Below are positions 754 to 35,615 of a stretch of DNA of 36,605 nucleotides, piece after piece. The stretch comes from Steroidobacter sp. (GTDB taxonomy: Bacteria > Pseudomonadota > Gammaproteobacteria > Steroidobacterales > Steroidobacteraceae): positions 1 through 36,605 of the forward strand of contig JAICPY010000035.1 in assembly GCA_025929585.1 (NCBI GenBank), given 5' to 3'. Under the pieces are notes generated by a model that worked only from the letters and a program-made list of their open reading frames with translations, searched no databases and was not told the DNA's origin. The position numbers and the translations under genes were made by a program. Each line of letters starts with the position of its first letter. Position 1 is the stretch's first letter.

Positions 754-833
754 AGTCCGAAGTCTGTGGTCCGCAGTCTGTGGCCAGACGTCGAGCCTCT
801 GGCTCTGGGCTGCGGGCTGCGGGCTATGGACTC
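754..833. repeat. Intergenic inverted word-repeat, AGTCCGCAGTCCG family
   Basis: Left arm 754-785 repeats AGTCCG/AGTCTGTGG-type words; right arm 807-833 carries the imperfect reverse complement, with GGGCTGC twice and then TATGGACTC. The rsmI stop codon (TAG on the minus strand, 824-826) lies inside the right arm. Other members of this family are at 14261-14383 and 22305-22390. Confidence 0.65.
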
Positions 834-1678
834 TGCCTCTTGCCGATGCTCATCGCTCTCTCATACAACTCACTGCGCTTCTCGCCGCTGATTTTCGCCG
901 CGATCTTTGCTGCCTGAGAGGGGGGAAGGTCTTCGAGCAGCGCGCGTAGCAGACGATCGGCATCAATGTTTAGCGTCGATGCCTGGATTGAGTTGCCTGC
1001 GACAACGATGACGATTTCTCCGCGAGACATATCTGTATCTCGAGCGCTCTGCTCCTGCAAGTGAGCAAGCGCACCCGAGTAGCTGGTCTCGTGTTGTTTA
1101 GTCAACTCTCGACAGACGACCGCACGTCGGTCCCCGCCAAAGATGCTGCTCATGTCGCTCAATGAATCCACCAGGCGATGCGGAGATTCATAGAACACCA
1201 TCGTGCGCTCTTGTGTCTGCAACATCTCCAGCTGAGCGCGCCGAGCGCTGCTTTTCGCAGCCAGGAAGCCTTCGAATGTGAATCTGTCGGTCGGCAGCCC
1301 GGCAATGGAAAGGGCAGCGATTGCCGCACAAGCTCCGGGCACCGCAACCACTTGGATGCCGCGATCGCGGGCTGCGGCTACGAGATCGAATCCAGGATCA
1401 CTGATGAGGGGCGTGCCGGCATCGCTTACGAGCGCTATCGATTCGCCTGCGATCAGACGAGCGAGCAACAGCTGCGAACGGCGCTCTTCATTGTGCTCGT
1501 GTAAGGACATCATTGCGGTTTCGATGCCGAAGACTTTCAGTAGCTGCCCGGTGTGGCGCGTGTCCTCGGCCGCAATCAGACTCACGCGGCCGAGCGTTTC
1601 CTGGGCGCGGCGGCTTAGATCGCCGAGATTGCCGATCGGCGTTGCAACCACGTAAAGCGTGCCAGCGGGTTGAGTCAT
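824..1678 (-). CDS. rsmI: 16S rRNA (cytidine(1402)-2'-O)-methyltransferase RsmI
   Basis: RsmI uses S-adenosylmethionine to 2'-O-methylate C1402 of 16S rRNA in the ribosomal P site, in the cytoplasm. The 284-residue product shows the tetrapyrrole-methylase-fold signatures of the family: VATPIGNLGDLS (10-21), AEDTRHTGQLL (38-48), SDAGTPLISDPG (85-96) and FYESPHRL further on. The frame is open 14 codons upstream, but ATG at 1676-1678 is preferred because family proteins begin a few residues before LYVVATPIGNLG; GGAG lies upstream. Its 5' end faces lpoA with about 80 bp between the starts, a divergent pair seen widely in gammaproteobacteria. The stop codon lies in the adjacent word-repeat. Confidence 0.95.
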   Translation of the reverse strand: MTQPAGTLYVVATPIGNLGDLSRRAQETLGRVSLIAAEDTRHTGQLLKVFGIETAMMSLHEHNEERRSQLLLARLIAGESIALVSDAGTPLISDPGFDLVAAARDRGIQVVAVPGACAAIAALSIAGLPTDRFTFEGFLAAKSSARRAQLEMLQTQERTMVFYESPHRLVDSLSDMSSIFGGDRRAVVCRELTKQHETSYSGALAHLQEQSARDTDMSRGEIVIVVAGNSIQASTLNIDADRLLRALLEDLPPSQAAKIAAKISGEKRSELYERAMSIGKRQSP

Positions 1679-1759
1679 GCCCTGAGCTTCTCCGAAGCGG
1701 TAAACTGTGCGGCGAGTCATCTATCGATCGTGGAAGTTTACCGCCCCCGGAGCCCGTGC

Positions 1760-3637
1760 ATGTCGAATCGGCCGATTTCAATGCGATGCTGGCTGGCATT
1801 CCTGCTGGCCTGCACGCTGCTCGCTGGATGCGAAGGCACGACGCCGAGCCGTCCGCAAAGCGCAGGCGCAGAGCGCGAAATGGCACGGGCCGAGCGACTC
1901 TCGCGCGAGGGGGATGCTCGAGGCGCGGCTAAAATCTACGAAGGTATCGCGGCACAATCGCCGACCGAGCTGCGCAATCGATTGATGTTGCGTGCCGCGC
2001 GCGAATACGTTCGCGCGGGTGAAAACGCTCGAGCGAGCGACATCCTGAAACAAATCACCGGCTCGCTGCCTACCGCAGATTTCGTGCTGCGCGCCTTGGT
2101 CGGAGCCGAGCTCTCATTGCAGGCCAATCGGCCTGACGCGGCACTCGCAGAGCTGAACCGTATTCCTCAACCGGTGCAACGAGAATCGCTGGCCGATGTG
2201 CTCGAGCTTCGCGCACGTGCGCTCTTTGCGTTGAATCGACCGGCAGCCGCGATCGTGACTGCATTGGATCGAGAAGCGGCGTTACGCTCGCAAGAAGAGA
2301 TCAAGAAGAATCGACGCATGATCTGGGAAGGTCTGCAACGCAGTGCGGCTGGAAATGCAGACTTCTCCGTGCCGCCCGGGAGTACCTCGGTGCTCGCTGG
2401 CTGGCTAGAGCTCGGCAATGCGGCGCTAGTCGCCGCCCGCAATCCTTTCACTGCCGGCGAAGGCTTAGCGCAGTGGCGCGGCCGTTATCCAAATCATCCT
2501 GCAAACTCTCTATTGGAAGAAGAGGTCCTCCCACAGCTCGGCATCGGACTGAACTACCCCGCGCAGATCGCGCTCGTACTGCCGCTGTCGGGGCGACAGC
2601 AGCTTGCGGGCATAGCGGTGCGCGACGGCTTCCTCGCCGCGATCCTGCAGCAAGATTCCGCGAGTCGCCCCGCACTGAACATCTACGATTCGGCCGAGAT
2701 GGGTGCGATCACGGCCTATCGTCAGGCCATCGCGGATGGGTCCCAGTTCATCGTAGGGCCGCTGACAAAGGATGAAGTGGCAGCGATCGGCAGTTCCGGC
2801 GAGGCTTCAGTGCTGACGCTCGCCTTGAATCAACTGCCCGATGAAACCGTTCCGCCGCCGATGATGTTTCAATTCGCTTTGGACCCGGAAGAAGAAGCCC
2901 AACAAGTCGCGCAACGGGTGGTGACGGATGGACGCATGCGCGGCATCGTGCTGCTGCCGAACAACGAATGGGGGCAACGCTTGTTTCGCGCATTCGACAC
3001 GGAGCTCAAGACTCTTGGCGGCGCAATTGCGGCATTGCGCTTCTACGACCCGAATGCTCGGGATTTTTCGCAACCGATTCGCTCAGTGCTACTGATCGAT
3101 GAGAGCCGCGCGCGCGCGAATGCGTTGAGCGCTGCGTTGGGTACACGCTTTGAATTCGAGCCACGACGCCGAGGCGACGTCCAGTTCGTGTTCGTGGGCG
3201 CGCAACCCGTGCAAGGCCGCTCGATCCGACCAGCGCTTCGTTTCCATCTGGCCGAAGATCTGCCTATGTACGCAACCTCGGATATCTTCGAACCCAGCGT
3301 GGACGCGAATAACGACTTGGAAGGCGTGATTTTCCCTGATATGCCATGGGTGATCTCGCCCGATGCCGTCTCGACCGAGCTGCGCGAAGCCTTGCGTAAA
3401 CATTGGCCGGTCCGCGCACGTGGCCGGGGGCGCTTGTATGCGTTCGGCTTCGATGCCTATCGCCTCATCCCACTGCTGAAAGCAGGCCGCTTCGGCCGCG
3501 AACACGCGATTCCGGGCATGACGGGTCAACTATCGATCGATGACAAGGGACGAGTTCGACGTGAGCTGGATTGGGCCCGCGTCTCGAGTGGCAAGGCGGT
3601 ACCGGTCGATGGCGCGAAGTCGGCAGAACTGAGGTGA
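1760..3637 (+). CDS. lpoA: Penicillin-binding protein activator LpoA (outer-membrane lipoprotein)
   Basis: LpoA is an outer-membrane lipoprotein that reaches through the periplasm to stimulate the peptidoglycan synthase PBP1A. The 625-residue product has a lipoprotein signal peptide ending LLAGC with the acylated Cys at residue 24, an N-terminal helical TPR-like half, and a C-terminal half resembling a periplasmic-binding-protein fold (starting near IALVLPLSGRQQLAG). That layout and its place between rsmI and yraN match LpoA/YraM. ATG 1760 was chosen over an upstream frame opening at 1670 because GGAG (1749-1752) precedes it and the signal peptide then begins correctly; ATG 1781 is also possible. 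The TGA stop lies inside a GTGATGGAG repeat word. Confidence 0.9.
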   Translation: MSNRPISMRCWLAFLLACTLLAGCEGTTPSRPQSAGAEREMARAERLSREGDARGAAKIYEGIAAQSPTELRNRLMLRAAREYVRAGENARASDILKQITGSLPTADFVLRALVGAELSLQANRPDAALAELNRIPQPVQRESLADVLELRARALFALNRPAAAIVTALDREAALRSQEEIKKNRRMIWEGLQRSAAGNADFSVPPGSTSVLAGWLELGNAALVAARNPFTAGEGLAQWRGRYPNHPANSLLEEEVLPQLGIGLNYPAQIALVLPLSGRQQLAGIAVRDGFLAAILQQDSASRPALNIYDSAEMGAITAYRQAIADGSQFIVGPLTKDEVAAIGSSGEASVLTLALNQLPDETVPPPMMFQFALDPEEEAQQVAQRVVTDGRMRGIVLLPNNEWGQRLFRAFDTELKTLGGAIAALRFYDPNARDFSQPIRSVLLIDESRARANALSAALGTRFEFEPRRRGDVQFVFVGAQPVQGRSIRPALRFHLAEDLPMYATSDIFEPSVDANNDLEGVIFPDMPWVISPDAVSTELREALRKHWPVRARGRGRLYAFGFDAYRLIPLLKAGRFGREHAIPGMTGQLSIDDKGRVRRELDWARVSSGKAVPVDGAKSAELR

Positions 3638-3763
3638 TGGAGGTGATGGGGGCAAGATGATGCGAGGACCGCGCAACATCTGTAAAGTCTCTTACCTATC
3701 ACTTACATCACCTATAACACTCACATCACTTCTATCACCTACGTCACTTTCATCACCTCCACC
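3631..3763. repeat. Intergenic inverted word-repeat, GTGATG family
   Basis: Left arm 3631-3651 has two GAGGTGATGG words starting inside the lpoA 3' end. The right arm 3691-3763 is long and degenerate: at least eight ATCAC/GTCAC-type words (CTATCAC, ACATCACC, TCTATCACC, TTCATCACC). It stops just upstream of the yraN ribosome-binding site. There is no TCTGAC core in this copy. Confidence 0.7.
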
Positions 3764-3778
3764 ATTTCAGGATCACTC

Positions 3779-4146: not shown

Positions 4147-4248
4147 CGTGTAGACGTGTAGGCGTGTGAACGTCAGAATCTCGCAGGACAAAGGCGGTAC
4201 ACCGGCTTTTCTGACCTCTACACGTCTACACCTCGATACGTTCGCACG
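4147..4248. repeat. Intergenic inverted word-repeat, GTGTAGACG family
   Basis: Left arm 4147-4178 (CGTGTAGACGTGTAGGCGTG then GTCAGA at 4172-4177). Right arm 4209-4248 begins with TCTGAC (4210-4215) and continues CTCTACACGTCTACACC. The loop is about 30 nt. The arms pair over most of their length, including the GTCAGA/TCTGAC boundary. The next gene's ATG (4258) follows CATCACC directly. Confidence 0.8.
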
Positions 4249-5213: not shown

Positions 5214-6073
5214 TGCAGGTTGCACTTGAGCGATCGACGAGTAAGCCATCGATCAGCGAGCTGAGTTGCCAGGCGCTATCCGTCAGCATTGCAGGTCGGG
5301 AGCTCGTGCGCGATCTGAACGTCAACTTCGAGCCGGGATCGGTGATCGCAATCCTGGGGAGAAACGGCGCAGGCAAGACACTCACGCTACATACGCTTGC
5401 GGGCTTGCGCTCTACGCAAGCCGGAGAAGTACGGCTTGGCACAGAGTCACTGGCCGCATGGCCTCGCCGCACACTTGCACGGTCACTGGGCTTGCTCACG
5501 CAGACAACCGAGGATGCATTTCCCTCGACAGTGCTCGATGCGGTTCTGGTCGGCCGGCATCCGCACATTGGATTCTGGGATTGGGAAAGCGATCAAGATC
5601 GCCGAATTGCACTCGAGGCGCTCGCAGCTGTTCAACTGCAAGGATTCGAGCTTCGAGAAGTGAGCACGTTGTCCGGCGGTGAACGCCGTCGCGTCGCGAT
5701 CGCCGCGCTGCTGACGCAATCGCCCGAGGTTTATCTACTCGATGAGCCCATCAATCACCTGGATCCTCATCATCAAATAGATATCTTGAATTTGCTGCGC
5801 ACTAAAGCAGCCGACGGCCACAGCGTGATCATGACTCTTCACGATGCCGCATTGGCCGCACGCTTCGCCGACTTCGCGTTGCTGCTGTTCGGCAACGGCG
5901 CTTGGCATTACGGCCCCAAGCACGAAGTCCTCACCGCAGAAATGATGACGAAGCTGTACGGTCTGCCGGTGCGCGAAGTGAAGTGGGAGGAAGGGATGAC
6001 GTTCGTGATGGGTGAAGATGGGGGAGGTGACGGGGTGACGAGGTCAGAAGAAGAACAGACGCGACCCTTCTGA
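5213..6073 (+). CDS. ABC transporter ATP-binding protein, BtuD/FecE-like
   Basis: A 286-residue nucleotide-binding subunit of an importer of the cobalamin/iron-siderophore type. All ATPase motifs are present: Walker A GRNGAGKT (49-56), signature LSGGE (153-157), Walker B VYLLDEP (173-179) and switch His210. Similarity in length and spacing to BtuD/FecE/HmuV-type ATPases, plus btuB and a B12 adenosyltransferase nearby, suggests cobalamin as substrate, but no permease or binding protein is encoded in the window, so substrate and partner are inferred. ATG 5213 overlaps the upstream stop; TTG 5201 is an alternative. The last 16 or so residues (from GDGVTRSEEE) are encoded by the downstream repeat, and the TGA is the one inside its TCTGAC core, so this tail is probably not part of the fold. 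Confidence 0.88.
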   Translation: MQVALERSTSKPSISELSCQALSVSIAGRELVRDLNVNFEPGSVIAILGRNGAGKTLTLHTLAGLRSTQAGEVRLGTESLAAWPRRTLARSLGLLTQTTEDAFPSTVLDAVLVGRHPHIGFWDWESDQDRRIALEALAAVQLQGFELREVSTLSGGERRRVAIAALLTQSPEVYLLDEPINHLDPHHQIDILNLLRTKAADGHSVIMTLHDAALAARFADFALLLFGNGAWHYGPKHEVLTAEMMTKLYGLPVREVKWEEGMTFVMGEDGGGDGVTRSEEEQTRPF

Positions 6074-6098
6074 CGCCGTCACTTCGTCACCCCGTCAC
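6026..6098. repeat. Intergenic inverted word-repeat, GTGACGG family, between convergent genes
   Basis: Left arm 6026-6050 (GGTGACGGGGTGACGAGGTC then AGAAG). Right arm 6067-6098 (CTTCTGACGCCGTCACTTCG then TCACCCCGTCAC). GTCAGA is at 6043-6048 and TCTGAC at 6069-6074, and GTCAGAAG/CTTCTGAC pair exactly across a 16-nt loop. Both convergent genes stop inside it: the ABC gene at TGA 6071-6073 and the minus-strand gene at 6095-6097. Confidence 0.85.
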
Positions 6099-7172: not shown

Positions 7173-7201
7173 TTGACCTCTCTGCTCCCCTTCCCTATCT
7201 T
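7173..7201 (+). promoter_or_regulatory. Sigma-70 promoter of the btuB riboswitch transcript
   Basis: TTGACC (7173-7178), exactly 17 bp of spacer, then TATCTT (7196-7201). Transcription would start close to 7208, just before the first conserved riboswitch element. Position and match quality make this a good call. Confidence 0.7.
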
Positions 7202-7213
7202 CCCGCCACCGCC

Positions 7214-7425
7214 AGGTGATCGTGTCCGATGAGGATGCGATAAACGGGAAGCCGGTACCTCGCTGCAAAGCGACATTCCGGCGCTGCCCCCGCAACGGTA
7301 TTCGAGTCAATCCATATCGAGAGACTAAACCCTCGAACCACTGCGTCGCTGACGTGGGAAGGTGATATGGACGAGCCGCGATCGTTCGCTGCTCACTCGT
7401 AAGCCCGGAGACCGGCCTGACGGAC
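7214..7425 (+). ncRNA. Cobalamin (adenosylcobalamin) riboswitch
   Basis: A B12-sensing leader RNA upstream of btuB. The conserved blocks occur in family order: AGGTGATCG (7214-7222), AACGGGAAGCCGGTA (7243-7257), ATTCCGGCGCTGCCCCCGCA (7275-7294) with the B12-box-type CCGCAACGG, GAGTCAATCC (7304-7313), the GTGGGAAGG element (7354-7362) and the closing AGCCCGGAGACCGGCC (7402-7417). A GCGCC/GGCGC hairpin (7455-7468) between the aptamer and the start codon may belong to the expression platform. No T-run follows it, so control at translation initiation (SD GGGGAG at 7519) is more likely than termination; that part is inference. Expected effect: repression of btuB when coenzyme B12 is plentiful. Confidence 0.88.
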
Positions 7426-7531
7426 ATACCAGCATCGCGGCGGGCGATGGGTGTGCGCCGTTCGGCGCGACCTTCTGCCGCCTGCTGTTTCAACAACGAC
7501 AGCCATGCGGGCGAGCATGGGGAGTGGTGCA

Positions 7532-9398: not shown

Positions 9399-9529
9399 GT
9401 GACGGGGTGACGGGTGACGAAGTCAGAGTAAGGGTTGGCTAGAAGCGACCGGTGCCATCCTCTTTGTCTGACTCAAGTCTCTTACTCTGACGTCGTCACC
9501 TCGTCACCCGTCACCCGTCACCCGTCACC
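9399..9529. repeat. Intergenic inverted word-repeat, GTGACGG family
   Basis: Left arm 9399-9432 (GTGACGGG words, then GTCAGAGTAAG). Right arm 9481-9529 (CTTACTCTGAC, then six GTCACC-type words). GTCAGAGTAAG and CTTACTCTGAC are an exact 11-bp inner stem; TCTGAC is at 9486-9491 and a second copy at 9467-9472 in the loop. The arm ends 9 bp before the PduO ATG. Confidence 0.88.
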
Positions 9530-9538
9530 AGGTATTTT

Positions 9539-10099
9539 ATGGGCCACCGACTCAGCAAGATCTACACACGCACGGGCGATGACGGCACGACAGGCTTAGG
9601 TGACGGAACGCGCGTGCCGAAAACGCACGCGCGTATCGAGGCATATGGCTCGGCGGACGAGACCAATAGTGCTTTGGGAATGGTGCTAGCTGTACCGGGG
9701 ATCCCCGCCGAAATCGCCGAGGTGCTGACGCGCATTCAGCATGAGCTTTTCGATTTAGGAGGCGAGCTTGCCGTCCCGGGCCTGCGATCCATTACGGCGG
9801 ATCACATCGTTCGGTTGGAGCGAGATCTCGATCGGTTCAATGATGCTCTTCCGCCCCTGAAAGAATTCATTCTGCCGAGCGGCGGCCAGGCAACCTCTGC
9901 ATGCCATCTGACCCGTACGATCGCGCGTCGCGCGGAGCGTGCATCATGGGCGTTGGCTGAGAGCGAGGCCGTCGCCCGTGAGGTGCCGCAGTATTTGAAT
10001 CGCCTATCCGACCTACTCTTCGTGCTCGCACGCGTCCTCGTGCGTCACGAGCATGGCGCGGAAGTATTGTGGCGCCGAGCGGGGCCTGAGGGACAGTGA
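9539..10099 (+). CDS. Cob(I)alamin adenosyltransferase, PduO type
   Basis: A 186-residue enzyme that transfers the 5'-deoxyadenosyl group of ATP to cob(I)alamin, making coenzyme B12 in the cytoplasm. Family signatures are clear: IYTRTGDDGTTGLGDG (8-23) for ATP binding, the RIEAYGSADETNSALG region, RTIARRAERASW and YLNRLSDLLFVLARVL near the C-terminus. With btuB upstream it converts imported corrinoid to the active cofactor, so the two genes form a salvage unit. AGGT lies between the repeat arm and ATG as a weak ribosome-binding site. Its stop TGA is inside the first GTGATG word of the next repeat. Confidence 0.93.
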   Translation: MGHRLSKIYTRTGDDGTTGLGDGTRVPKTHARIEAYGSADETNSALGMVLAVPGIPAEIAEVLTRIQHELFDLGGELAVPGLRSITADHIVRLERDLDRFNDALPPLKEFILPSGGQATSACHLTRTIARRAERASWALAESEAVAREVPQYLNRLSDLLFVLARVLVRHEHGAEVLWRRAGPEGQ

Positions 10100-10191
10100 T
10101 GAAGTGATGAGTGATGAGGTGATAAGGACAGAAACGAGAACTCCTTTCCGGCCTCTTGCCGCATCACCTTATCACTTCATCACCACATCAC
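10094..10191. repeat. Intergenic inverted word-repeat, GTGATGAG family, between convergent genes
   Basis: Left arm 10094-10131 (CAGTGATGAAGTGATGAGTG, continuing ATGAGGTGATAAG). Right arm 10161-10191 (GCATCACCTTATCACTTCAT, then CACCACATCAC). The inner 5' boundary reads GGACAGA, a possible decayed GTCAGA; TCTGAC is absent. The loop is about 30 nt. The arm overlaps the PduO stop codon. Confidence 0.82.
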
Positions 10192-11895: not shown

Positions 11896-11993
11896 AAGTG
11901 ATGAGGTGATCAGGTGATGAAGTGATGACGTAAGAAAATACGAACCAGTTTTCGCTCTGTCGTCATCACCTTATCACTTCATCGCCTCATCAC
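11896..11993. repeat. Intergenic inverted word-repeat, GTGATGAG family
   Basis: Left arm 11896-11934 (AAGTGATGAGGTGATCAGGT, continuing GATGAAGTGATGACG). Right arm 11961-11993 (CGTCATCACCTTATCACTTC, then ATCGCCTCATCAC). GATGACG/CGTCATC pair at the inner end; the loop is about 30 nt. It lies between two genes read in the same (minus) direction. Confidence 0.85.
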
Positions 11994-12003
11994 TCCCGCC
12001 TTC

Positions 12004-12867: not shown

Positions 12868-12993
12868 GTGTGAGTAGATACGGCTCGTAGGGGTGTAGGG
12901 TTCCTTCTGACTCTTCGCGGAGTGTGTGACGTGTAGAAGACGCCTGAAACTAACAGCGCGGCTATCTGACCCTACACGCTACACCTCTACACC
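12868..12993. repeat. Intergenic inverted word-repeat, GTGTAG family (degenerate)
   Basis: Left arm about 12868-12900 (GTGTGAGTAGATACGG, GTAGGGGTGTAGGG) with further GTGTGTGACGTGTAG at 12922-12936; right arm 12965-12993 (TCTGACCCTACACGCTACAC, then CTCTACACC). TCTGAC occurs twice, 12906-12911 and 12965-12970; the second is the arm boundary. Confidence 0.7.
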
Positions 12994-14260: not shown

Positions 14261-14383
14261 GAGTCTGCAGCTGACAGTCCGCAGTCCGTAGCAAGAACTG
14301 GATTAGCCGTATCTCGCACGCTCGGTCCGCTTGACCTTTCTCTGGCTTCGGACCACAGACTGCGGTCCACGGACTCTAATCTC
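14261..14383. repeat. Intergenic inverted word-repeat, AGTCCGCAGTCCG family
   Basis: Left arm 14261-14292 (GAGTCTGCAGCTGACAGTCC, GCAGTCCGTAGC); right arm 14349-14383 (CGGACCACAGACTGCGGTCC, ACGGACTCTAATCTCC). The loop is about 56 nt. The closing ACGGACT-TAATCTCC is shared with the copy at 22362-22396. Confidence 0.75.
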
Positions 14384-16501: not shown

Positions 16502-16641
16502 GGTGACAGGTGACGGGTGACGGGTGACGGGCAAGAAGTAAGTGGATGTACTCAGCTAAGGAAGTAACGAATGGTGCTCGAGAAGCACGCCCTTTCATCC
16601 ACTGCGTCCCACCCGTCACTCGTCACTCGCCACCCGTCACC
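16502..16641. repeat. Intergenic inverted word-repeat, GTGACGG family
   Basis: Left arm 16502-16531 (GGTGACAGGTGACGGGTGAC, GGGTGACGGG, then CAAGAAG). Right arm 16609-16641 (CACCCGTCACTCGTCACTCG, CCACCCGTCACCC). The loop is about 77 nt and starts GGGCAAGA, as in the copy at 23074. Confidence 0.82.
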
Positions 16642-18707: not shown

Positions 18708-19020
18708 AGCGAGATAGGTAACCGAATTTGCGGTAGACCGCTGATGGGAGCGAAGTATCGACCTAGAAATCCACCAGACGCAATTGCGGACGCGCGCTCG
18801 CAGCGCGATCGGACAGCACCGGACACCAGCGGACAGGGATGTATGCAGGAAGACAGGCGCCTTGGCGGGGAGTTCCCGCCGGAGCGGTGACGGGGTGACG
18901 GGGTGACGAAGTCGGAAGCCGGAGCGAGCGAAAGTGCGGATTGCATGTGCACGCATGCTCTGACGTCGTCACTTCGTCACCCGTCACCCGTCACGGCGCG
19001 CGCCGCGCGCTCCCCGCAGG
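18708..19020. other. Intergenic region upstream of the M13 gene
   Basis: No gene seen. It holds a CGGGGAGTTCCCG-type palindrome near 18867-18878 and the GTGACGG inverted repeat. The M13 promoter is presumably between 18720 and 18880 on the minus strand but I could not fix it. Confidence 0.4.
18886..18994. repeat. Intergenic inverted word-repeat, GTGACGG family
   Basis: Left arm 18886-18915 (GGTGACGGGGTGACGGGGTG, ACGAAGTCGG). Right arm 18959-18994 (TCTGACGTCGTCACTTCGTC, ACCCGTCACCCGTCAC). TCTGAC at 18959-18964; GTCGGA is the near-match on the left arm. The loop is about 43 nt. Confidence 0.85.
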
Positions 19021-19307: not shown

Positions 19308-19429
19308 GGAGCGTGAGATTAGTAGTGGCCCACTGTATGGACCGTGAAAGACTCCACATTTCTTCGGCGTTTTACCGTTATCAGGCGATGTCTTAGACGC
19401 CATTAGCAAACCGGATCACACCTTCGCAC

Positions 19430-19948
19430 GTGCGCTACCGACCACCCCAGCCGAAAGGTTCGAAATTTATTACACCCGAGGGAGCCAAAAGGCTTAAGGA
19501 CGAGCTCGATCACTTGTGGCGCGTATTGCGCCCGCAAGTGACGCAGGCCGTCCAAGAAGCAGCCGCGCAAGGCGACCGCTCGGAGAACGCCGAATACATT
19601 TACGGCAAGAGGCAACTGCGCGAAATAGATCGACGCGTACGTTTTCTTCGACAACGACTGGATGGAATGGTCGTGGTCGACCAGCCGCCCTCGGACCCAA
19701 GACGTGTATTTTTCGGAGCCTGGGTCACTGTCGAAGACGACAACGGCGATGAAGTCGAGTACCGCATCGTCGGTCCCGATGAATTCGACGCCGCGCCTCG
19801 CTACATCAGCATGGACTCGCCTCTCGGCCGCGCCCTCCTGCGCAAAGGCATCGACGATGAGGTGAAAGTCGAAGTACCAGGAGGCACGAAGATGTATGTG
19901 GTCGTGGACGTGAGATATGGAGGAGGAAGTGAAGGGGATAGGGGATAG
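19430..19948 (+). CDS. greB: Transcription elongation factor GreB
   Basis: A 172-residue Gre factor that rescues backtracked RNA polymerase by stimulating transcript cleavage. The coiled-coil N-terminal domain (about 12-80) carries FITPEGAKRLKDELDHLWR, GDRSENAEYIYGKRQLREID and RRVRFLRQRLDG, with the acidic tip residues D-x-x-x-E in the GDRSENAEY loop. The C-terminal domain has VFFGAWVTVEDDNGDEVEYR and YISMDSPLGRALLRK. These distinguish GreB from GreA. GTG 19430 is the only start that keeps the N-terminus whole. The last residues (SEGDRG) are encoded by the GGGGATAG repeat, and the TAG stop is a repeat word. Confidence 0.94.
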   Translation: MRYRPPQPKGSKFITPEGAKRLKDELDHLWRVLRPQVTQAVQEAAAQGDRSENAEYIYGKRQLREIDRRVRFLRQRLDGMVVVDQPPSDPRRVFFGAWVTVEDDNGDEVEYRIVGPDEFDAAPRYISMDSPLGRALLRKGIDDEVKVEVPGGTKMYVVVDVRYGGGSEGDRG

Positions 19949-20088
19949 TCAGTCGCGGGAGAATTCAACCGTAGAACGTTCCGGCTCTTTATTCTGACTA
20001 TCCCCTATCCGCCATCCGCTTCTCTCCGCGTTCCCGCTCTTATTCTTACGATCCCCTATCCCCTATCCCCTATCCCCTATCGCCTTCC
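19932..20088. repeat. Intergenic inverted word-repeat, GATAGGGG family, between convergent genes
   Basis: Left arm 19932-19952 overlaps the greB end (GAAGGGGATAGGGGATAGTC). The right arm has two parts: 19993-20022 (TCTGACTATCCCCTATCCGC, CATCCGCTTC) and 20049-20088 with CCCCTAT four times in perfect 7-bp register. TCTGAC at 19993-19998. On the minus strand the second part reads GGGGATA four times just after the stop of the next gene. Confidence 0.85.
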
Positions 20089-20652: not shown

Positions 20653-20660
20653 TAAGAAGC

Positions 20661-20798
20661 GAAGGCGATAGGGGATAGCGGATAGGGGATATTAAGAATC
20701 GAGAGGAGACAGAAACACGACGCGCTCGGCAATCTGGACAAGTAGCTGCGCGATCTTGCCGTTTCCTTCTATCCCCTATCCCCTATCGCCTTCCCTCC
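20661..20798. repeat. Intergenic inverted word-repeat, GATAGGGG family
   Basis: Left arm 20661-20692 (GAAGGCGATAGGGGATAGCG, GATAGGGGATAT). Right arm 20767-20798 (TTCTATCCCCTATCCCCTAT, CGCCTTCCCTCC). The loop is about 74 nt and lacks TCTGAC. The outer ends GAAGGCGATA/TATCGCCTTC also pair. Confidence 0.85.
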
Positions 20799-20799
20799 T

Positions 20800-22304: not shown

Positions 22305-22390
22305 TAGTCCGCGGTCCGCAGTCCGTAGCCGGAATCAGGCACAATCTCCGTCTCGCTGGCTGCAGACTGCGGACTGCTGGCCACGGACTT
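22305..22390. repeat. Intergenic inverted word-repeat, AGTCCGCAGTCCG family
   Basis: Left arm 22305-22329 (AGTCCGCGGTCCGCAGTCCG, TAGCC). Right arm 22362-22390 (GCAGACTGCGGACTGCTGGC, CACGGACTT), followed by AATCTCC as at 14377-14383. The loop is about 32 nt. Confidence 0.78.
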
Positions 22391-23073: not shown

Positions 23074-23199
23074 GGTGACGAGTGACGAGTGACGAGTGAC
23101 GGGCAAGAGATAGCGACAAAGTGCCACCTCTACAGCCTACACTTTACACTTCACACGCTCCGTCTGACTCGTCACCGGTCACCCCTCACTCCTCACCCC
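23074..23199. repeat. Composite intergenic repeat: GTGACGAG unit with nested GTGTAG-family right arm
   Basis: Left arm 23074-23105 has four GTGACGAG/GTGACGGG words; right arm 23163-23199 begins with TCTGAC (23163-23168) and continues CTCGTCACCGGTCACCCC. Inside the loop, 23126-23157 reads like a right arm of a different family (CCTCTACAGCCTACACTTTA, CACTTCACAC) with no matching left arm. The junction therefore appears to be a mosaic of two families. Confidence 0.75.
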
Positions 23200-23208: not shown

Positions 23209-24057
23209 ATGTATTCCACCCTGATCAGTGCGGACGAATTCGCCCAGCATCTAACCGACCCAGACTTCCTGCCCATCGACTGCCGGTTCGATCTTGCGAA
23301 CCCCACAGCGGGCGAAGAAGCTTATCGACTCGAACACGTTCCCGGAGCGGTGTACGCGCATTTGGATCGGGATCTTTCAGCACCGATCACCGCAACTTCC
23401 GGCCGTCATCCGCTGCCGGATCCGGATCGATTCGCAGACACATTGTCGCGCTGGGGAATTACATCCATGACACAGGTAATCGCCTACGACGCCGACAACA
23501 GCGCGCACGCGGCACGCTTGTGGTGGATGCTGCGCTGGATGGGACATCGGAAGGTCGCAGTGCTCGACGGTGGTCTGAAAGCATGGAAGCAGGCAGGACT
23601 CCCGCTGACTGCCGAGATTCCCCGTCGCTCGGCATCGAAGTTCGAAGCGAACCCCGACAGACACATGTGGCTGGATGCAGATCAGCTCACCTCGAAACTC
23701 GCCGATGGATGGCGGCTGTTGGATGCGCGAGCATCGGAGAGATTCGCGGGCAAGGTCGAACCGATCGATGCAGTGGCTGGACACGTTCCCGGCGCCGTGA
23801 ATCATCCTCTGTCGAGTAATCTCGATACCAACGCGCGTTTTCTGTCGGCGGATGAGCTGCGAAGAAGATACGAAGCTTCGCAGGGCGGAGTCGATGACGC
23901 GCGCACCGTCGCAATGTGCGGTTCCGGCGTCACCGCCTGTCATCTGCTTCTGGCGATGGAAATAGCAGGCAAGAGCGGCGCCCGACTGTATGCGGGCTCG
24001 TGGAGTGAATGGATCAGGGATCCGGCAAGACCGAAGGCGATAGGCGATAGCGGATAG
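23209..24057 (+). CDS. sseA: Thiosulfate/3-mercaptopyruvate sulfurtransferase (two rhodanese domains)
   Basis: A 282-residue tandem-rhodanese enzyme that transfers sulfane sulfur. The N-terminal domain lacks the catalytic Cys (YDADNSAHAARLWW, 93-106), as is normal; the C-terminal domain has MCGSGVTACH (236-245) with catalytic Cys237. The CGSGVT loop fits 3-mercaptopyruvate sulfurtransferases at least as well as thiosulfate enzymes, so the donor is uncertain. ATG 23209 follows a C-rich arm and AAAAAGCC; no clear Shine-Dalgarno sequence. The final residues (KAIGDSG) are encoded by GATAGGCGATAGCGGATAG repeat words and the TAG stop lies within them. Confidence 0.92.
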   Translation: MYSTLISADEFAQHLTDPDFLPIDCRFDLANPTAGEEAYRLEHVPGAVYAHLDRDLSAPITATSGRHPLPDPDRFADTLSRWGITSMTQVIAYDADNSAHAARLWWMLRWMGHRKVAVLDGGLKAWKQAGLPLTAEIPRRSASKFEANPDRHMWLDADQLTSKLADGWRLLDARASERFAGKVEPIDAVAGHVPGAVNHPLSSNLDTNARFLSADELRRRYEASQGGVDDARTVAMCGSGVTACHLLLAMEIAGKSGARLYAGSWSEWIRDPARPKAIGDSG

Positions 24058-24204
24058 GCGATGGGAAGAGATGCAGGCGATCTGCAAATTGCGGATGTGC
24101 GTTACGAAGCACCAGCTACAATCAAGCTCACCACCTGATGGGAACACTAGCTCCACTCAGGTTCTTCTCTGACTATCCCCTATCGCCCATCCCCTATCGC
24201 CTTC
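24033..24204. repeat. Intergenic inverted word-repeat, GATAGGCG family member
   Basis: Left arm 24033-24067 (GAAGGCGATAGGCGATAGCG, GATAGGCGATGGGAAG) overlaps the sseA 3' end. Right arm 24168-24204 begins with TCTGAC (24168-24173), then TATCCCCTATCGCCCATCCC. The loop is about 100 nt. Confidence 0.83.
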
Positions 24205-26175: not shown

Positions 26176-26384
26176 AGATAGAAGGCGATAGGGGATAGCG
26201 GATAGGGGATAGTCAGAGGGAGGGACTCACTGCCCGCTTCTATCGAGACTGAGATAGGCATTTGGATCGCCTACACTTTAGCCGCATCCATCTATTCGCA
26301 GCGCGTCTACCGCTGCTTACCTATGCCTATCGCGCCTCTTCATCTGACTATCCCCTATCGCCCATCCCCTATCGCCTTCTATCC
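26176..26384. repeat. Intergenic inverted word-repeat, GATAGGGG family
   Basis: Left arm 26176-26217 (GATAGAAGGCGATAGGGGAT, AGCGGATAGGGGATAGTCAGA) with GTCAGA at 26212-26217. Right arm 26343-26384 starts with TCTGAC (26343-26348), then TATCCCCTATCGCCCATCCC, CTATCGCCTTCTATC. The arms pair nearly end to end over about 40 bp, the longest match in the window. The loop is about 125 nt with no gene. Confidence 0.9.
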
Positions 26385-27935: not shown

Positions 27936-29107
27936 TCCGCCGAGTGCATGGATGTTCAAGCGCGAAGTGTTTGCCGCGCGGTCTGCTTGCGGCATTCTTG
28001 AGCTTATTTGTGTCTGCACATGCGCAAAGCCCTACGCCGGAAACTGCGCCCACCGAGCTAAAACCGAAAGCGAAAATTCGCCTACTCGGCAGCGAGGTGC
28101 CGCCGAGTACACGCAAACGTCTACTTTGGACGAGTGGAACGGCAATCGAGGGATTCGCCTCTCCCGTGCCTGTCATCGTTCTGAATGGCAGCGGTCCTGG
28201 ACCGGTATTGTGTTTGACTGCGGCAGTGCATGGCGATGAGCTGAACGGCATCGAGGTCGTGCGACGTGTACTCGATGACGTGGACGTCGAAGAATTGAAT
28301 GGCGCCATCATCGGCGTGCCGATCGTGAACATCCAAGGCTTTTATCGCGGCACACGCTACTTGCCGGATCGTCGCGACTTGAATCGTCACTTCCCGGGCA
28401 ATGCGCGCGGCAGTGCGGCCACCCGCATGGCGCACTCCTTTTTCACTGAAGTCGTGCGCCACTGCTCGGCACTCATCGATTTGCATACCGGTTCATTGAA
28501 TCGCACCAACCTGCCTCAGGTTCGCGCCAATTTGAACATTCCTTCCGTCGCGCGCATGACGCAGGCATTCGGCGCAACGGTCGTTCTGCATAGCATTGGC
28601 GATAAGAGCTCGTTGCGCCGCGCGGCGACAGAGGCCGGCATTCCATCGGTGACATTTGAAATGGGTGAGCCGATGCGAGTGCAACCCGAGCAAGTCGAAC
28701 ACGGTGCAAAGGCCATTGAAACACTGATGTACTCGCTTGGCATGACGCGGCAACGCCGCTATTGGGGCGACCCCGAACCCGTGTACTACGCATCGAAGTG
28801 GGTTCGTGTGGATCACGGCGGCATTTTGTTTTCCGACGTTGCACTCGGCGAGCGAGTGAGCGAGGGAGAGTTACTCGGCGTCGTTACTGATCCAATTTCC
28901 AACAAGCAACACCGAATCTACGCCCCGACCAGCGGACGCATCCTCGGCATGGCGCTCAATCAAGTCGTGCTGCCCGGATTCGCCGCCTACCGCATCGGCA
29001 CCGAGACATCGAAGTCCACCGCCATCCGCGACTCTGCCGAAGAGTCAGAAGAAACTGCTGATGAAGAAGAACCCATGGCGGATGAAGAGGGAGAGCCGAG
29101 AGGATAG
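27932..29107 (+). CDS. Succinylglutamate desuccinylase/aspartoacylase family (AstE-like), exported
   Basis: A 391-residue zinc carboxypeptidase-fold deacylase. Zinc ligands are seen in AAVHGDELNG (the H-x-x-E motif) and the downstream DLHTG element; RDLNRHFPG resembles the substrate-binding Arg-Asn-Phe-Pro segment. A signal peptide (about residues 17-31, LLAAFLSLFVSAHA) precedes the domain, which is unlike cytosolic AstE. A C-terminal domain (HGGILFSDVALGERVSEGEL, IYAPTSGRILG) and a Glu/Asp-rich tail (AEESEETADEEEPMADEEG) follow. Coupled to the methyltransferase by a 4-bp overlap. The biological substrate is unknown. The TAG stop abuts the first GTGACGG word. Confidence 0.88.
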   Translation: MIRRVHGCSSAKCLPRGLLAAFLSLFVSAHAQSPTPETAPTELKPKAKIRLLGSEVPPSTRKRLLWTSGTAIEGFASPVPVIVLNGSGPGPVLCLTAAVHGDELNGIEVVRRVLDDVDVEELNGAIIGVPIVNIQGFYRGTRYLPDRRDLNRHFPGNARGSAATRMAHSFFTEVVRHCSALIDLHTGSLNRTNLPQVRANLNIPSVARMTQAFGATVVLHSIGDKSSLRRAATEAGIPSVTFEMGEPMRVQPEQVEHGAKAIETLMYSLGMTRQRRYWGDPEPVYYASKWVRVDHGGILFSDVALGERVSEGELLGVVTDPISNKQHRIYAPTSGRILGMALNQVVLPGFAAYRIGTETSKSTAIRDSAEESEETADEEEPMADEEGEPRG

Positions 29108-29364
29108 TGACGGGGTGACGGGTGACGGGTGACGGGTGACGGGTGACGGGTGACGGGTGACGGGTGACGGGTGACGGGTGACGGCAAAATGTCGACTCAC
29201 TCGTAACTACGTCAACTGATATCTAAGATTGCGAACGCCCAAAGGTTGGATATGAGGCGCATTAAACAGGCCGCTTACGCGACCGTTTGGATTCACGACC
29301 GATACACTTCACGACCTTACGTTCGCTGACTCTTTCTCATCACCCGTCACCCGTCACTCATCAC
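29107..29364. repeat. Large GTGACGG inverted repeat with an 11-copy heptamer array
   Basis: Left arm 29107-29184: one GTGACGG, one extra G, then ten perfect GTGACGG heptamers (29115-29184). Right arm about 29338-29364 (CATCACCCGTCACCCGTCAC, TCATCACC). The loop is about 150 nt and resembles the loop at 30709-30831. The NUDIX ATG (29366) begins one base after the arm. Confidence 0.92.
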
Positions 29365-29365
29365 C

Positions 29366-29960: not shown

Positions 29961-30013
29961 TCTGACCTCTACACGCCTACACATCCTCACCTCCACACGT
30001 CCACACCCTACTC
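29961..30013. repeat. Half-unit: right arm of the GTGTAG family without a left arm
   Basis: TCTGAC (29961-29966) followed by CTCTACACGCCTACACATCC and further CACCTCCACACGTCCACACC. No GTGTAG left arm precedes it between the NUDIX stop and 29960. It is the only clear unpaired unit in the window. Confidence 0.7.
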
Positions 30014-30292: not shown

Positions 30293-30688
30293 GTGAGAGC
30301 GTTGAACGAAGACGACTTGAGAAAACTGGGACTGCGGCTACGCCCGCGTTCCATTGCGAAAAAGCAAGAGGACAAACCTGGGCACATCGCTTTCGACGAC
30401 CGCGGTAACGCCGTGTATGAGTGGAGCGACCAGCGTTTAGAGGAAGACAGTGACGACGGCGAACGCGCCCGCAGGCGCGCGCTGTCACATCCTGGTTTGT
30501 CGATAGTCGAGGACGACCCGAATCCGAACGAGCCCATCCGCACTAACCCGAAGGGTTTACGAATTGGCTACAACCCGTACGAGAGCGGATTATTGAAGAA
30601 GAAGGGATCGAAGACGAAGCGCGACCTTCGCGAGTTGTCGAAGTGGATCGAGATGAGAAAGAAGGCGGATGGCAATAGCGGTCAGTGA
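30293..30688 (+). CDS. Conserved hypothetical protein (131 aa)
   Basis: A 131-residue basic-acidic protein without recognised domain. Segments that look conserved from memory of similar beta/gammaproteobacterial hypotheticals: GHIAFDDRGNAVYEWSDQRL (29-48), NPKGLRIGYNPYESGLL (about 84-100) and RDLRELSKWIEMRKK near the end. No signal peptide or membrane segment, so probably cytoplasmic. GTG 30293 is the start; AAGGAT lies rather far upstream. The TGA stop is inside the first GTGACGG word of the next repeat. Confidence 0.8.
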   Translation: MRALNEDDLRKLGLRLRPRSIAKKQEDKPGHIAFDDRGNAVYEWSDQRLEEDSDDGERARRRALSHPGLSIVEDDPNPNEPIRTNPKGLRIGYNPYESGLLKKKGSKTKRDLRELSKWIEMRKKADGNSGQ

Positions 30689-30859
30689 CGGGTGACGGGT
30701 AACGGGCCAAAAGTGTGGAGTGCCTGCGACTGTGTCAACTCGTATTCAACAAGTAGATGACTCTCTTAGCGACGGCCTGAACCCACGAGCGACACTCTTC
30801 ACGACGTTACCGTCGCTGATTTCCCGTCCCCGGTCACTCGTCACCCGTCACCCGTCACT
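30683..30859. repeat. Intergenic inverted word-repeat, GTGACGG family, between convergent genes
   Basis: Left arm 30683-30708 (CAGTGACGGGTGACGGGTAA, CGGGCC). Right arm 30832-30859 (GGTCACTCGTCACCCGTCAC, CCGTCACT). The loop (about 123 nt) contains CACTCTTCACGACGTTAC (30793-30810), similar to the loop at 29295-29340. Both flanking stop codons lie in or next to the arms. Confidence 0.82.
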
Positions 30860-32371: not shown

Positions 32372-32520
32372 GTGGTGATGAAAGTGATGGAGGTAAGAAG
32401 CGATACCGGGACTCACGCCAGCGCCCGGAGCGGTGGAAGCGTGAACGCAAGTCCGGTCCTGAGGTTTCCCGAGAAAATTCAGAGTGGCGAATAAGATGGA
32501 AATTCTTCTGTTTCCGTTCG

Positions 32521-32540
32521 CCCTGAGCCCGGTCGAAGGG
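32521..32540 (+). repeat. REP-like interspersed element
   Basis: CCCTGAGCCCGGTCGAAGGG resembles the widespread proteobacterial intergenic palindrome family with core CCCTGAG-CC-TCGAAGGG. This is recall of the family, not a database result. Confidence 0.5.
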
Positions 32541-32565
32541 TTCCGAAGATTCAGAATGCTTCGAC

Positions 32566-32599
32566 TCTTCTAGAAGGCTCTGTCTTCTAGAAGGCTCTG
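32566..32599. repeat. Perfect tandem duplication of 17 bp
   Basis: TCTTCTAGAAGGCTCTG is repeated twice head to tail (32566-32582, 32583-32599). Each copy contains the palindrome CTTCTAGAAG. Confidence 0.85.
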
Positions 32600-32774
32600 A
32601 AGTCAGCACGAAGGGAGCCGTGAGATCACAAGCTGCTGATTCCGGCGCCTGTCTCTGGAGAAACCTCAGGGTCCCACCGTCTTACGTTCATCACTTTCAT
32701 CACGGTCACGCTCATCACCTTCATCACCTTCATCACTTCGCGCTCCTGCGCGTCCCTGCGCACTTCGCGCAGGT

Positions 32775-34289: not shown

Positions 34290-35459
34290 TCACGCGGCCG
34301 CGAGGCCTTTCGCGAGGTCCTCTTTCAGATCCTCGAGCGCTTCCAAACCGATCGACAATCGCAGCATGCCTTCTGTAATGCCGGCGCGTTCGCGCTCCTG
34401 CGCAGTGATACGCGAATGTGTTGTCGTCGCAGGATGAGTGATTGTCGTTTTTACATCCCCAAGGTTCGCGGTGATCGAGACCAATCGCGTGGCGTCGATG
34501 AACGACCAGGCACCGGCGCGAGCATTTTCTATCTCGAACGTGACGATACTGCCGAAGGCGGATTGCTGGCGTTTTGCCAATGCGTATTGAGGATGCGAAG
34601 TGAGCCCAGCATAGTGAACCTTGCGAACCTTGGGATGCGCCTCGAGCCATTGCGCAATGTCCAATGCGGCCGCGGATTGAGCGCGCATTCTCAACTCCAA
34701 AGTCTCCAAACCCTTCAAGAATACCCATGCGTTGAACGGACTCATGCTGGGGCCCGCCGTGCGGATGAAACCGAACACATCCTTGCCCACGATCTGGGCG
34801 TCACCGAGCACTGCGCCGCCGATGCACCGACCCTGACCATCCAGGAACTTCGTCGCTGAGTGGATCACCAAATCGGCCCCAAGCTCGAACGGCTTCTGCA
34901 AAGCCGGCGTACAGAAACAATTATCGACTACCAGCAGCACACCTCTTTCATGCGCGATGTCCGCAAGCGCGCGGATGTCCGCGATCACGGAGAGCGGATT
35001 GGACGGCGTCTCGAGATAGAACATCCGCGTGTTGGGCTTGATCGCCTCACGCCACGCATCGTTATCATCGAGACGCACGTACGTGACCTCGACACCAAAC
35101 TTGAGCAGATAGCGGTTGATCAGTGCGATGGTCGAGCCGAACACGCTTTCCGAGCACACGATGTGGTCGCCCGCTTTCAGAACGCTCATGCAGGTTGCCA
35201 GGATCGCAGCCATCCCGGATGAAGTCGCAACACAGCTCGCACCCCCCTCCATCGCGGCAAGCCGCTCCTCGAAGCAACGCACGGTTGGATTGGTAAAGCG
35301 TGAGTAGATGTTGCCTTTCTCGGTTTCATCGAACCTCGCCGCCGCCTCGGCAGCGTTGCGGAACACATAGCTCGAAGTGGTGAAGATCGGTTCGCAGTGC
35401 TCGCCCTCTTGAGTGCGAACCTGGCCGGCGCGGACTGCGAGTGTCGAAAGTTGAGTCAT
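34290..35459 (-). CDS. metZ: O-succinylhomoserine sulfhydrylase MetZ
   Basis: A 389-residue PLP enzyme of the Cys/Met metabolism family that converts O-succinylhomoserine plus sulfide to homocysteine. The PLP lysine is in SATKFLDGQG; other family motifs are NPTVRCFEERLAAMEGG, ATSSGMAAI, YLETPSNPLSVIADI and VVDNCFCTPALQKP. FDETEKGNIYSRFTNPTV near the N-terminus is typical for MetZ; cystathionine gamma-synthase or MetY cannot be excluded without a tree. ATG 35459 follows TATCCCCTTCGTTCCT, the minus-strand reading of the C-rich arm; no Shine-Dalgarno sequence. The HAD gene lies downstream on the same strand, 75 bp away. Confidence 0.92.
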   Translation of the reverse strand: MTQLSTLAVRAGQVRTQEGEHCEPIFTTSSYVFRNAAEAAARFDETEKGNIYSRFTNPTVRCFEERLAAMEGGASCVATSSGMAAILATCMSVLKAGDHIVCSESVFGSTIALINRYLLKFGVEVTYVRLDDNDAWREAIKPNTRMFYLETPSNPLSVIADIRALADIAHERGVLLVVDNCFCTPALQKPFELGADLVIHSATKFLDGQGRCIGGAVLGDAQIVGKDVFGFIRTAGPSMSPFNAWVFLKGLETLELRMRAQSAAALDIAQWLEAHPKVRKVHYAGLTSHPQYALAKRQQSAFGSIVTFEIENARAGAWSFIDATRLVSITANLGDVKTTITHPATTTHSRITAQERERAGITEGMLRLSIGLEALEDLKEDLAKGLAAA

Positions 35460-35465
35460 AGGAAC

Positions 35466-35615
35466 GAAGGGGATAGCGGATAGGGGATAGGGGATAGTGT
35501 AAGAAAAAAGAAGCGGCAGCGCGTGCTGTTTAGCCTCGGATGAGAGGTGATGTAAGTAAAAGTGCGCGATAACCCGGCTTTCCTATCCGCCATCCGCTAT
35601 CCGCTATCCCCTTCC
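35466..35615. repeat. Intergenic inverted word-repeat, GATAGGGG family, between divergent genes
   Basis: Left arm 35466-35498 (GAAGGGGATAGCGGATAGGG, GATAGGGGATAGT). Right arm 35580-35615 (TTCCTATCCGCCATCCGCTA, TCCGCTATCCCCTTCC). The loop is about 80 nt. The right arm lies about 45 bp upstream of the FIST gene start. Confidence 0.85.

Follow-up and report, generated by a model that had tools for sequence, protein, structure and literature searches.

The window, a 36,605-nucleotide stretch of contig JAICPY010000035.1 of a Steroidobacter species, carries the RNase P RNA gene, an lpoA-like gene next to a UPF0102 gene and an ABC-transporter frame, among other genes. In the window, Rfam at gathering scores recognised RNase P and a cobalamin riboswitch only and gave no match for the word elements described here. 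It had been predicted from the letters of this stretch that 22 intergenic spaces hold inverted repeats built from short tandem words, which fall into five families of one design. Each of the 22 sites was scored against 200 first-order Markov shuffles with equal search steps, and at 18 of them the inverted repeat lay beyond every shuffle, which confirms that the arms pair better than shuffled words. Pairing at 754, 12868, 14261 and 29961 was not significant against the 200 shuffles (p 0.29, 0.06, 0.055 and 0.13); the last of these had already been called a half unit, in agreement with the lone C-rich array seen there. The tandem words were also picked up independently by TRF, and the loops of the 18 significant sites range from 30 to 281 nt. 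A listed site, weak ones counted, is contained in 20/26 gene-gene spacers of at least 40 nt (Table 1).

Table 1. Word elements and arrays in the window (IR, inverted-repeat score).
Position	Element	First arm	Second arm	IR	Remarks
755..825	AGTCTG + GGGCTGC arrays				3' of RNase P RNA gene; pairing not significant, p 0.29
3629..3770	GTGATG words	3629-3648	3751-3770	12.5	lpoA-like / UPF0102 gene junction
4147..4240	GTGTAGACG words	4147-4178	4209-4240		GTTGAC words at same junction in sister genome G007
6027..6098	GTGACG, 8-nt spacing	6027-6044	6081-6098		ABC-transporter frame runs on through first arm
9399..9514	GTGACG, inner tail GTCAGA	9399-9432	9481-9514		C-arm words extend to 9529
10096..10191	GTGATGA	10096-10123	10163-10191		convergent junction
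11897..11994	GTGATGAG	11897-11930	11961-11994		GTGYGGACG words at this junction in G007, CTGGAGA words in G013
12887..12990	weak GTGTAGG / CTACACC pair				p 0.06, not significant
14275..14362	weak AGTCCG pair, inner tail GCAAGA / TCTGGC				p 0.055, not significant
16502..16641	GTGACGG, tail GCAAGAA	16502-16548	16596-16641
18884..18997	GTGACGG	18884-18912	18971-18997		canonical terminator nearby, minus strand, 19051-19029
19936..20085	GATAGGG	19936-19952	19994-20010		third array, C-rich, 20051-20085
20655..20799	GATAGGG	20655-20685	20769-20799		GCGGTTAG words there in G008
22306..22389	AGTCCGC	22306-22328	22367-22389	13
23074..23197	GTGACGA	23074-23101	23170-23197		divergent gene pair
24033..24204	GATAGGC	24033-24071	24166-24204		same word family in G008
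26177..26383	GATAGGG	26177-26217	26343-26383	33.5	IR maximum of window
29107..29365	GTGACGG	29107-29184 (~11 words)	29340-29365
29961..30006	half element, lone C-rich array, GTGTAG-like family				minus strand; any pair p 0.13
30684..30859	GTGACGG	30684-30704	30839-30859		loop similar to loop of 29107
32375..32703	GTGATG	32375-32398	32680-32703		loop 281 nt
35466..35614	GATAGGG	35466-35497	35583-35614		divergent gene pair

The survey was extended to a 548,632-base sample of this genome that takes in the window (contigs C1-C41 without contig 39), with gene calls from a home-made hexamer model. Because the window had been chosen by the reader who made the original prediction and is therefore biased, counts without it are also given. 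Outside it, 48/261 spacers (512 kb) hold a word element; the elements belong to a genome-wide class, and the junction placement extends beyond the window. The whole sample contains 66 family-defined elements in 66/287 spacers, one of which, L036 (4442), is probably no word element. A control of 547 spacers from 73 named loci returned six detector matches, one judged genuine. Spacers contain 344 word dimers and called genes, at 86% of the sample, contain 47; array pairs are inverted in 60 cases and direct in 12 (1 and 0 in the Markov control). Two GTGACGG words in tandem were matched 446 times in this genome.

At least ten word families share one common architecture. Besides the five families of the window, which proved real, the 548,632 bases contain AGCGGGTCG, AGGGGGTAATGATTA, GTTGACGG, GCGGTTAG and AACAGGAT. 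An element consists, in order, of an arm of words with a period of 7-9 nt, the inner tail G[TC][CA]AGA, a mostly unique loop and the complementary arm, and both arms belong to one family in 60/66 elements. The tail is found in 72/128 arms (6.3 expected) and 9/10 families, or in 54/98 arms with the window excluded, and is missing from 56/128. It had also been claimed that the G-rich arm always stands 5' on both strands. The polarity holds, in part as a truism of inverted repeats, with G exceeding C in the first arm of 62/66 family-defined elements, falling below it in 3 and matching it in 1; "always" does not, since three elements of the AGTCYG family, which is not G-rich and in which G and C are roughly balanced, depart from it, as does one C-first AACAGGAT element.

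Within an element, the 7- or 8-nt spacing of GTGACG words is correlated between first and second arm (rho 0.82, n=17). Only this correlation is relied on, because coupling of the arms beyond family, with an overall p of 0.0002, is significant in only 3/8 families (not in GATAG, p 0.30; GTGTAG, 0.96; GCGGGTCG, 0.83; GTTGAC, 0.17; GGGGGTA, 0.50) and matching arms are more readily detected. Copy numbers are unequal between arms, as at 29107 with about 11 words vs 4. Loops are alike in 2/120 same-family pairs, which is also the extent of the common internal sequence that marks MITEs; recent copying of whole elements would not lead one to expect this, and as a general rule such copying was rejected, with two exceptions. 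The elements might instead be mutational by-products without function, grown by replication slippage, corrected by hairpin template switching between the arms and cleared from genes by selection. Spacing variants common to both arms, freely varying copy numbers, unique loops and the restriction to spacers agree with such an origin, which nevertheless appears unlikely, as it leaves unexplained the same word at many loci (the 446 GTGACGG dimers), the inner tail across families, the fixed polarity and the differing words at sister junctions.

The elements lie close behind stop codons. From the stop codon to the stop-side edge the median distance is 4 nt, and it is at most 25 nt in 67/74 cases (54/58 with the window excluded); at tandem junctions the upstream stop is closer than the next start for 40/42 elements. 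Divergent junctions are depleted, with elements in 8/67 of them vs 58/220 other junctions (p 0.013), so that divergent gene pairs flank 8/66 elements. A terminator is not needed in divergent-gene spacers. Among the 62 of 66 elements that measure at most 260 nt, 53 fold with z < -3. The C arm contains 44% C and 13% G, and its YC density is 0.28 vs 0.13 in other spacers.

These features invite a reading of the elements as primary bidirectional terminators, in which a long hairpin and the weak RNA-DNA hybrid of the pyrimidine-rich distal arm would release RNA polymerase without a T-run. The elements abut stop codons, fold strongly, avoid divergent genes, and by their polarity set the pyrimidine-rich arm last in either direction. 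Their presence in 8/67 divergent junctions and their absence from many orthologous junctions of sister species speak against this role, and since they occupy only 66/287 spacers, most gene ends must end otherwise. The intrinsic-terminator pattern, a hairpin followed by a T-run, was found at 14/74 element-side gene ends and 37/202 other ends; in relatives it was found at 6/35 (G001) and 7/39 (G003) gene ends, with no word-like repeat in the sequence read of G001 and one in that of G003. Canonical terminators are thus neither replaced nor avoided at the elements, and replacement was rejected. The observation that a T-run hairpin is missing from the majority of these gene ends was accurate, but it is no evidence for a terminator role, because such hairpins are equally rare without elements. 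Position and folding keep the earlier idea of terminators or 3' stabilisers plausible, to which the T-run argument adds nothing; as the primary function, termination is considered doubtful.

All-three-frame stop codons occur on the outward-reading strand of 75/132 arms and on the other strand of 4/132, as expected of traps that would stop ribosomes entering from either side in any frame. By inspection, the sister-species words CACGGAG, CACAGAG and CACGGGG have no stop codon within the same architecture, so the trap was rejected as a general rule and is rated very improbable.

Dispersed, intergenic heptamer arrays, the STRR, are known from cyanobacteria. Drosophila fold-back transposons have a variable middle flanked by inverted ends of short tandem repeats; by that description they resemble the present elements, and they differ in being eukaryotic and far larger. 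The Nostoc GGGGATT-type arrays are likewise dispersed intergenic heptamers, few of them paired as far as the consulted part of the source goes (PMC4692102). The TAACTGA repeats of Beggiatoaceae are also intergenic, patchily distributed heptamer arrays; according to the portion of PMC4679880 consulted, they comprise 169 direct sets and one indirect repeat, mostly just upstream of start codons, whereas the elements here are inverted and stand on the stop side. In a search of open-licence papers for the class, PMC4692102 was the only close match among the matches listed, and by word letters nothing related, judged by title, was among the matches listed.

The closest relatives are the intergenic GGGAATC heptamer arrays of Xanthomonas, many of which lie near stop codons (Rehm et al., 2015; PMC4692102, in excerpt). 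Convergent inverted GGGAATC pairs number 70 in X. campestris (Xcc) and 75 in X. axonopodis (Xac), few repeats (7-8%) lie between divergent genes, and gene context is retained in Xac for 83% of Xcc repeats (PMC4692102, same excerpt). The original prediction was thus right about heptamer-type arrays in Xanthomonadaceae; its statement that no such system was known to be described does not stand, as paired heptamers had been published. The two systems have in common 7-nt G-rich words, intergenic position, coding-strand proximity to stop codons, scarcity between divergent genes and convergent inverted pairs. Even the word recurs, for GGGAATC arrays occur on three contigs of this genome, with an inverted GACTCCC (GGGAGTC) partner on two, though most elements use words other than GGGAATC / GGGANTN. 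They differ in that the excerpt describes one word family vs at least ten here, makes no mention that we found of an inner tail, and reports 83% of gene context kept, whereas words here usually change at common junctions. G-quadruplexes or R-loops, as proposed for the Xanthomonas repeats, would fit the G runs of the GGGGATA, GGGTGAC and GGGAATC words, and quadruplexes of Xanthomonas and Nostoc repeats form in vitro (Rehm et al., PMC4692102, in excerpt). By inspection, the GTGATGAG, GTGTAGACG, AGTCCGC and GTTGACGG words have no regular runs of at least three G within the same architecture, and this explanation of the class is highly improbable.

REPINs, or REP doublets, are likewise oriented, extragenic, hairpin-forming and lineage-specific inverted pairs, with spacers that vary in some families and a tag-like motif at one end (PMC3116915, PMC3733652, in the parts consulted). 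As in REPINs, the inverted doublet forms one hairpin; the arms here are tandem words and not palindromes (mean z -0.59 for single arms, n=124, with some fold below -4 kcal in 58/124), and no linked transposase was found. If the elements were REPINs moved by a REP-associated Y1 tyrosine transposase, their inverted pairing, fixed orientation, hairpin, extragenic position and variable spacer would be accounted for, and it is in line with this that G001, G003, G009, G011 and G012, which have no Y1 match, contain no more than one word-like repeat per genome across the 20-120 kb read. The arms argue otherwise, and so does the distribution of Y1 genes. This genome has one Y1_Tnp match, and its 4285-base contig carries no word element; word elements without a Y1 match are present in G004, G013 and G007 (75% complete), and G005, G006 and G010 show the reverse in the 17-34 kb read. 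Linkage to RAYT genes was not seen, and this explanation is improbable. A reverse transcriptase was also rejected as a candidate, as the occurrence of RVT_1 matches (10/14 genomes; none in the word-rich G008, nor in G005, G010 and G013) does not follow word content.

Comparison with sister genomes points to rapid turnover. At junctions occupied in two species, different words were seen by eye in 11/13 pairs (G008 5, G002 3, G007 4, G013 1; non-significant sites of this genome excluded), where two of the four G007 elements were missed by the detector, one of them mostly a C-rich array, the G007 word CGTGATC/CGTGACT and its counterpart in this genome both contain the letters GTGAC, and at 11896 the G008 interval is longer and includes an additional gene. 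In G008, a word element was found by eye at 5/10 junctions occupied here vs 9/98 background spacers (p 0.003), the G007 contigs being excluded as a background rate as they were partly picked by word similarity; such joint occupancy may mean that the spacers are permissive. Sister species lack an element at many orthologous junctions. The words CACGGAG, CACAGAG and CACGGGG of sister species stand in the same architecture, and in G002 elements are nested, with CACGGGG arms enclosed by CACAGAG arms.

The GTGACGG dimer occurs in 8/60 relatives, this genome included, with 58 matches in G008 and one each in six others. Three copies in tandem occur in 3/398 genomes of the phylum, this one included, TTCACACGGAGNNCACGGAG in 0/398 (a set without G008), and GGGAATC x3 in 1/114 genomes of the class, namely this one. 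A Gemmatimonadetes case (L139) suggests that the class reaches beyond Pseudomonadota. On viral contigs, GTGACGG x3 was found in 10 stretches, and a search within 200 nt around each gave no inverted repeat that resembles the present elements. In L219 and L223, GTGACAAGTGAC and GTCACTTGTCAC form a short facing pair that stays within the shuffles, and L214, L215, L220 and L222 have other inverted repeats above them. Phage carriage was thus rejected.

The word elements belong to a kind already known and extend it to a lexicon of many words with fast turnover. They are best read, with a probability of about 0.5, as dispersed, non-coding, REPIN-like inverted repeats of the Xanthomonas paired-heptamer kind that are either tolerated or retained as 3'-end hairpins acting in both directions. 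The spread and turnover of the paired arms would resemble those of REPINs or fold-back elements, and the arms would persist because a hairpin right behind a stop codon is harmless or useful. A transcript from either side would run through the G-rich arm, the loop and then the C-rich arm and form a long hairpin, which could shield the mRNA 3' end; the C-rich distal arm could aid Rho-dependent termination in both directions, though locked in the hairpin it may be out of reach for Rho. The REPIN-like side of this reading is weakened by the lack of a mobilising enzyme tied to the elements (the single Y1 contig has none), the 2/120 alike loops and the tail missing from 56/128 arms, and the 3'-end side by the 8/66 elements between divergent genes and the canonical terminators that are not replaced.

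A quite improbable alternative is a templated DNA-end process, in which, once a spacer had been opened, the G-strand word and the constant tail would be added telomere-fashion at each of its 3' ends and the ends rejoined around filler DNA. This one rule would explain the fixed polarity, the equal words on both arms, the common tail and the unique loops, as well as the nested G002 elements and the exchange of whole words at one junction between sister species; if it were true, the lexicon would change whenever the template changes.

The published heptamer arrays found, in the parts of the sources consulted, were handled word by word and explained via the word, for instance by quadruplexes for GGGAATC. 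With at least ten words in one architecture and other words at the same sister junction, the architecture is separable from the sequence, which argues against a quadruplex-only role. What recurs is a paired, oriented, often tailed hairpin behind the stop codon, while its letters vary; repeat surveys built on consensus sequences will overlook a large part of such elements. The status of these repeats, as 3'-end elements, as parasites or as both, thereby becomes directly testable.

Eighteen of the 22 inverted-repeat sites with reverse-complement arms claimed by the original prediction were matched by none of the 200 shuffles that a Markov model generated from the same stretch, and the same 18 were recovered with 100 shuffles, whereas pairing at sites 754, 12868, 14261 and 29961 (window start positions) was not significant against the 200 shuffles. 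Each strong site consists of two oppositely oriented word arrays 30-281 nt apart. A listed site, weak in 3 cases, lies in 20 of the window's 26 gene-gene spacers that are 40 nt or longer. A word-built inverted repeat scoring at least 14 was detected in 14 of the 26 window spacers of 40-700 nt. The window genes look ordinary by Pfam, including rsmI-like, lpoA-like (LppC), UPF0102, ABC transporter, inositol monophosphatase, TonB-dependent receptor, cobalamin adenosyltransferase, LemA, M13 peptidase, GreA/GreB-type factor and arginine decarboxylase genes, among others.

The window is contig C197 of an assembly of 5.13 Mb in 297 contigs. The proposed scan for paired arrays was extended to 512,027 bases outside it, and word-built inverted repeats scoring at least 14 were found in 48 of 261 spacers (40-700 nt). 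In a further 122,484-base sample 9/78 spacers carried elements, all nine with the G-rich arm first. Score 14 was reached by 70/239 spacers, word-built or otherwise, compared with 0.14% of shuffles, and inverted array pairs outnumbered direct ones 60 to 12 (Markov control: 1 and 0). Several contigs end in or beside long word arrays (L231 end, L233 end, L038 start, and ends of C10, C12 and C35 of this genome), so the arrays probably interrupt the assembly, making their copy numbers lower bounds. A separate large inverted repeat family also recurs in this genome (see table).

Ten word families were defined by patterns in this genome, and both arms belong to the same family in 60 of 66 elements. 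By eye, the remaining six comprise three missed by the patterns, two mixtures (L014, L026) and L036, which is probably not a word element. The motif G[TC][CA]AGA lies inward of the last word in 72/128 arms against 6.3 expected (54/98 with the window excluded), and this inner tail is present in 9/10 families. The prediction that the G-rich arm is always 5' held for 62/66 elements and failed for three AGTCYG elements, whose arms are about balanced, and one AACAGGAT element. Word spacing, 7 or 8 nt, is concordant between arms (rho 0.82, n=17 GTGACG elements). Of 120 loop comparisons within families, 118 showed no relationship; similarity was confined to the adjacent elements 29107 and 30683 and to one pair of GGGAATC elements. 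Nesting was found in the related genome G002, where CACAGAG arms enclose CACGGGG arms.

Spacers contained 344 word dimers and called genes, which make up 86% of the sample, contained 47. Median distances between the gene and the outer edge of the element are 4 nt at stop codons (67/74 within 25 nt) and 23 nt at start codons (30/58 within 25 nt), and the upstream stop is the nearer gene end in 40/42 tandem junctions. Divergent junctions are depleted (8/67 with elements versus 58/220, p 0.013). T-run terminator-like hairpins occur at 14/74 element-side gene ends versus 37/202 others. The ABC-transporter frame continues across the G-rich arm of element 6026 and terminates at the TGA of its inner TTCTGAC tail, so this arm may be translated.

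Features and word content by position
Feature	Sequence	Position	Words or context
RNase P RNA gene, complete (Rfam RF00010)	window	375-748	immediately ahead of first word array
ABC-transporter frame	window	5213-6073	
Cobalamin riboswitch (RF00174)	window	7197-7434	ahead of TonB-dependent receptor gene; cobalamin adenosyltransferase gene next
Junction	window	4147	here GTGTAGACG; G007 GTTGAC words
Junction	window	11896	here GTGATGAG; G007 GTGYGGACG words; G013 CTGGAGA words
Junction	window	19932	G002 CACAGAG words, unlike here
Junction	window	20661	here GATAGGG; G008 GCGGTTAG; G002 CTACAGG-type word
Concentric, mirror-symmetric elements	L112 (G002)	9083-9291; 19177-19384	one word family inside another's arms
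G-first word element	L139, contig titled Gemmatimonadetes (another phylum)	2300-2404	GTGAGTTG words
Short facing pair	viral contigs L219; L223	~10578; ~1844	GTGACAAGTGAC / GTCACTTGTCAC, CCGTCAC words between
Large inverted repeats	L012	12563-12989	CCCCCTCCCTACCCTCCCCCGTAAACGGGGG type
Large inverted repeats	L015	7070-7613; 7928-8361	CCCCCTCCCTACCCTCCCCCGTAAACGGGGG type

Gene order is conserved within the genus over much of the window, and many orthologous junctions in relatives have a short spacer without an element. For instance, the spacer between genes g18 and g19 measures 143 nt here versus 20-25 nt in G001, G003, G011 and G012. Counted by eye, words were unlike in 11/13 junction pairs occupied in two species; the family was retained at 24033 in G008 and at 23074 in G002. 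G008 is occupied at 5/10 junctions occupied here versus 9/98 background spacers (p 0.003), indicating that occupancy is common to species more than words are, and by eye G002 is occupied at 3/8 and G007 at 4/5 such junctions. Alternatively, permissive spacers could be the source of this shared occupancy.

Occupied spacers in sister genomes were 15/116 (G008), 4/31 (G002), 2/20 (G004) and 1/15 (G013). G007 was word-rich in the contigs examined, which were partly selected by word similarity; G003 and G009 each carry one AT-rich word-like repeat, and no word element was found in the 17-80 kb examined per genome of G001, G005, G006, G010, G011 and G012. The detector used on this genome was also run on 547 spacers from 73 named loci of other genera, where one of its six matches was judged genuine (L139). 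The facing pair in the two viral contigs was within shuffle range. Spacers of L044-L050 (G008) and L112 (G002) additionally contain palindromic REP-like doublets of the GTCATTCCCGCGAAAGCGGGAATCC and GGCCGGCTTCAGCCGGCC types.

The original prediction knew of no description of such a system, but the closest one found, Rehm et al. 2015 (PMC4692102), reports GGGAATC arrays in Xanthomonas, in line with the heptamer-type arrays that the prediction mentioned for Xanthomonadaceae. Those arrays are intergenic, lie near stop codons and seldom separate divergent genes; the two genomes have 70 and 75 convergently oriented inverted pairs (Rehm et al. 2015). GGGAATC arrays are also present in this genome, two with an inverted GACTCCC partner. 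The elements are therefore classed as a variant of the Xanthomonas paired kind, new in having many words, an inner tail common to the families and a rapid turnover of words. REPINs behave alike, but assignment to that class was rejected because the arms here are not palindromes.

Whole-element folding gave z below -3 against shuffles in 53 of 62 elements (those up to 260 nt). The second arm is C-rich and G-poor (44% C, 13% G), and its YC density is double that of other spacers. RNA transcribed from either side may carry a long hairpin near the stop codon. Such a hairpin could act as a barrier to 3' exonucleases and could favour Rho-dependent release downstream. Y1 transposases and reverse transcriptases were sought, and neither clearly tracks the word content of genomes. 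The elements may spread as pairs and be replaced over time.
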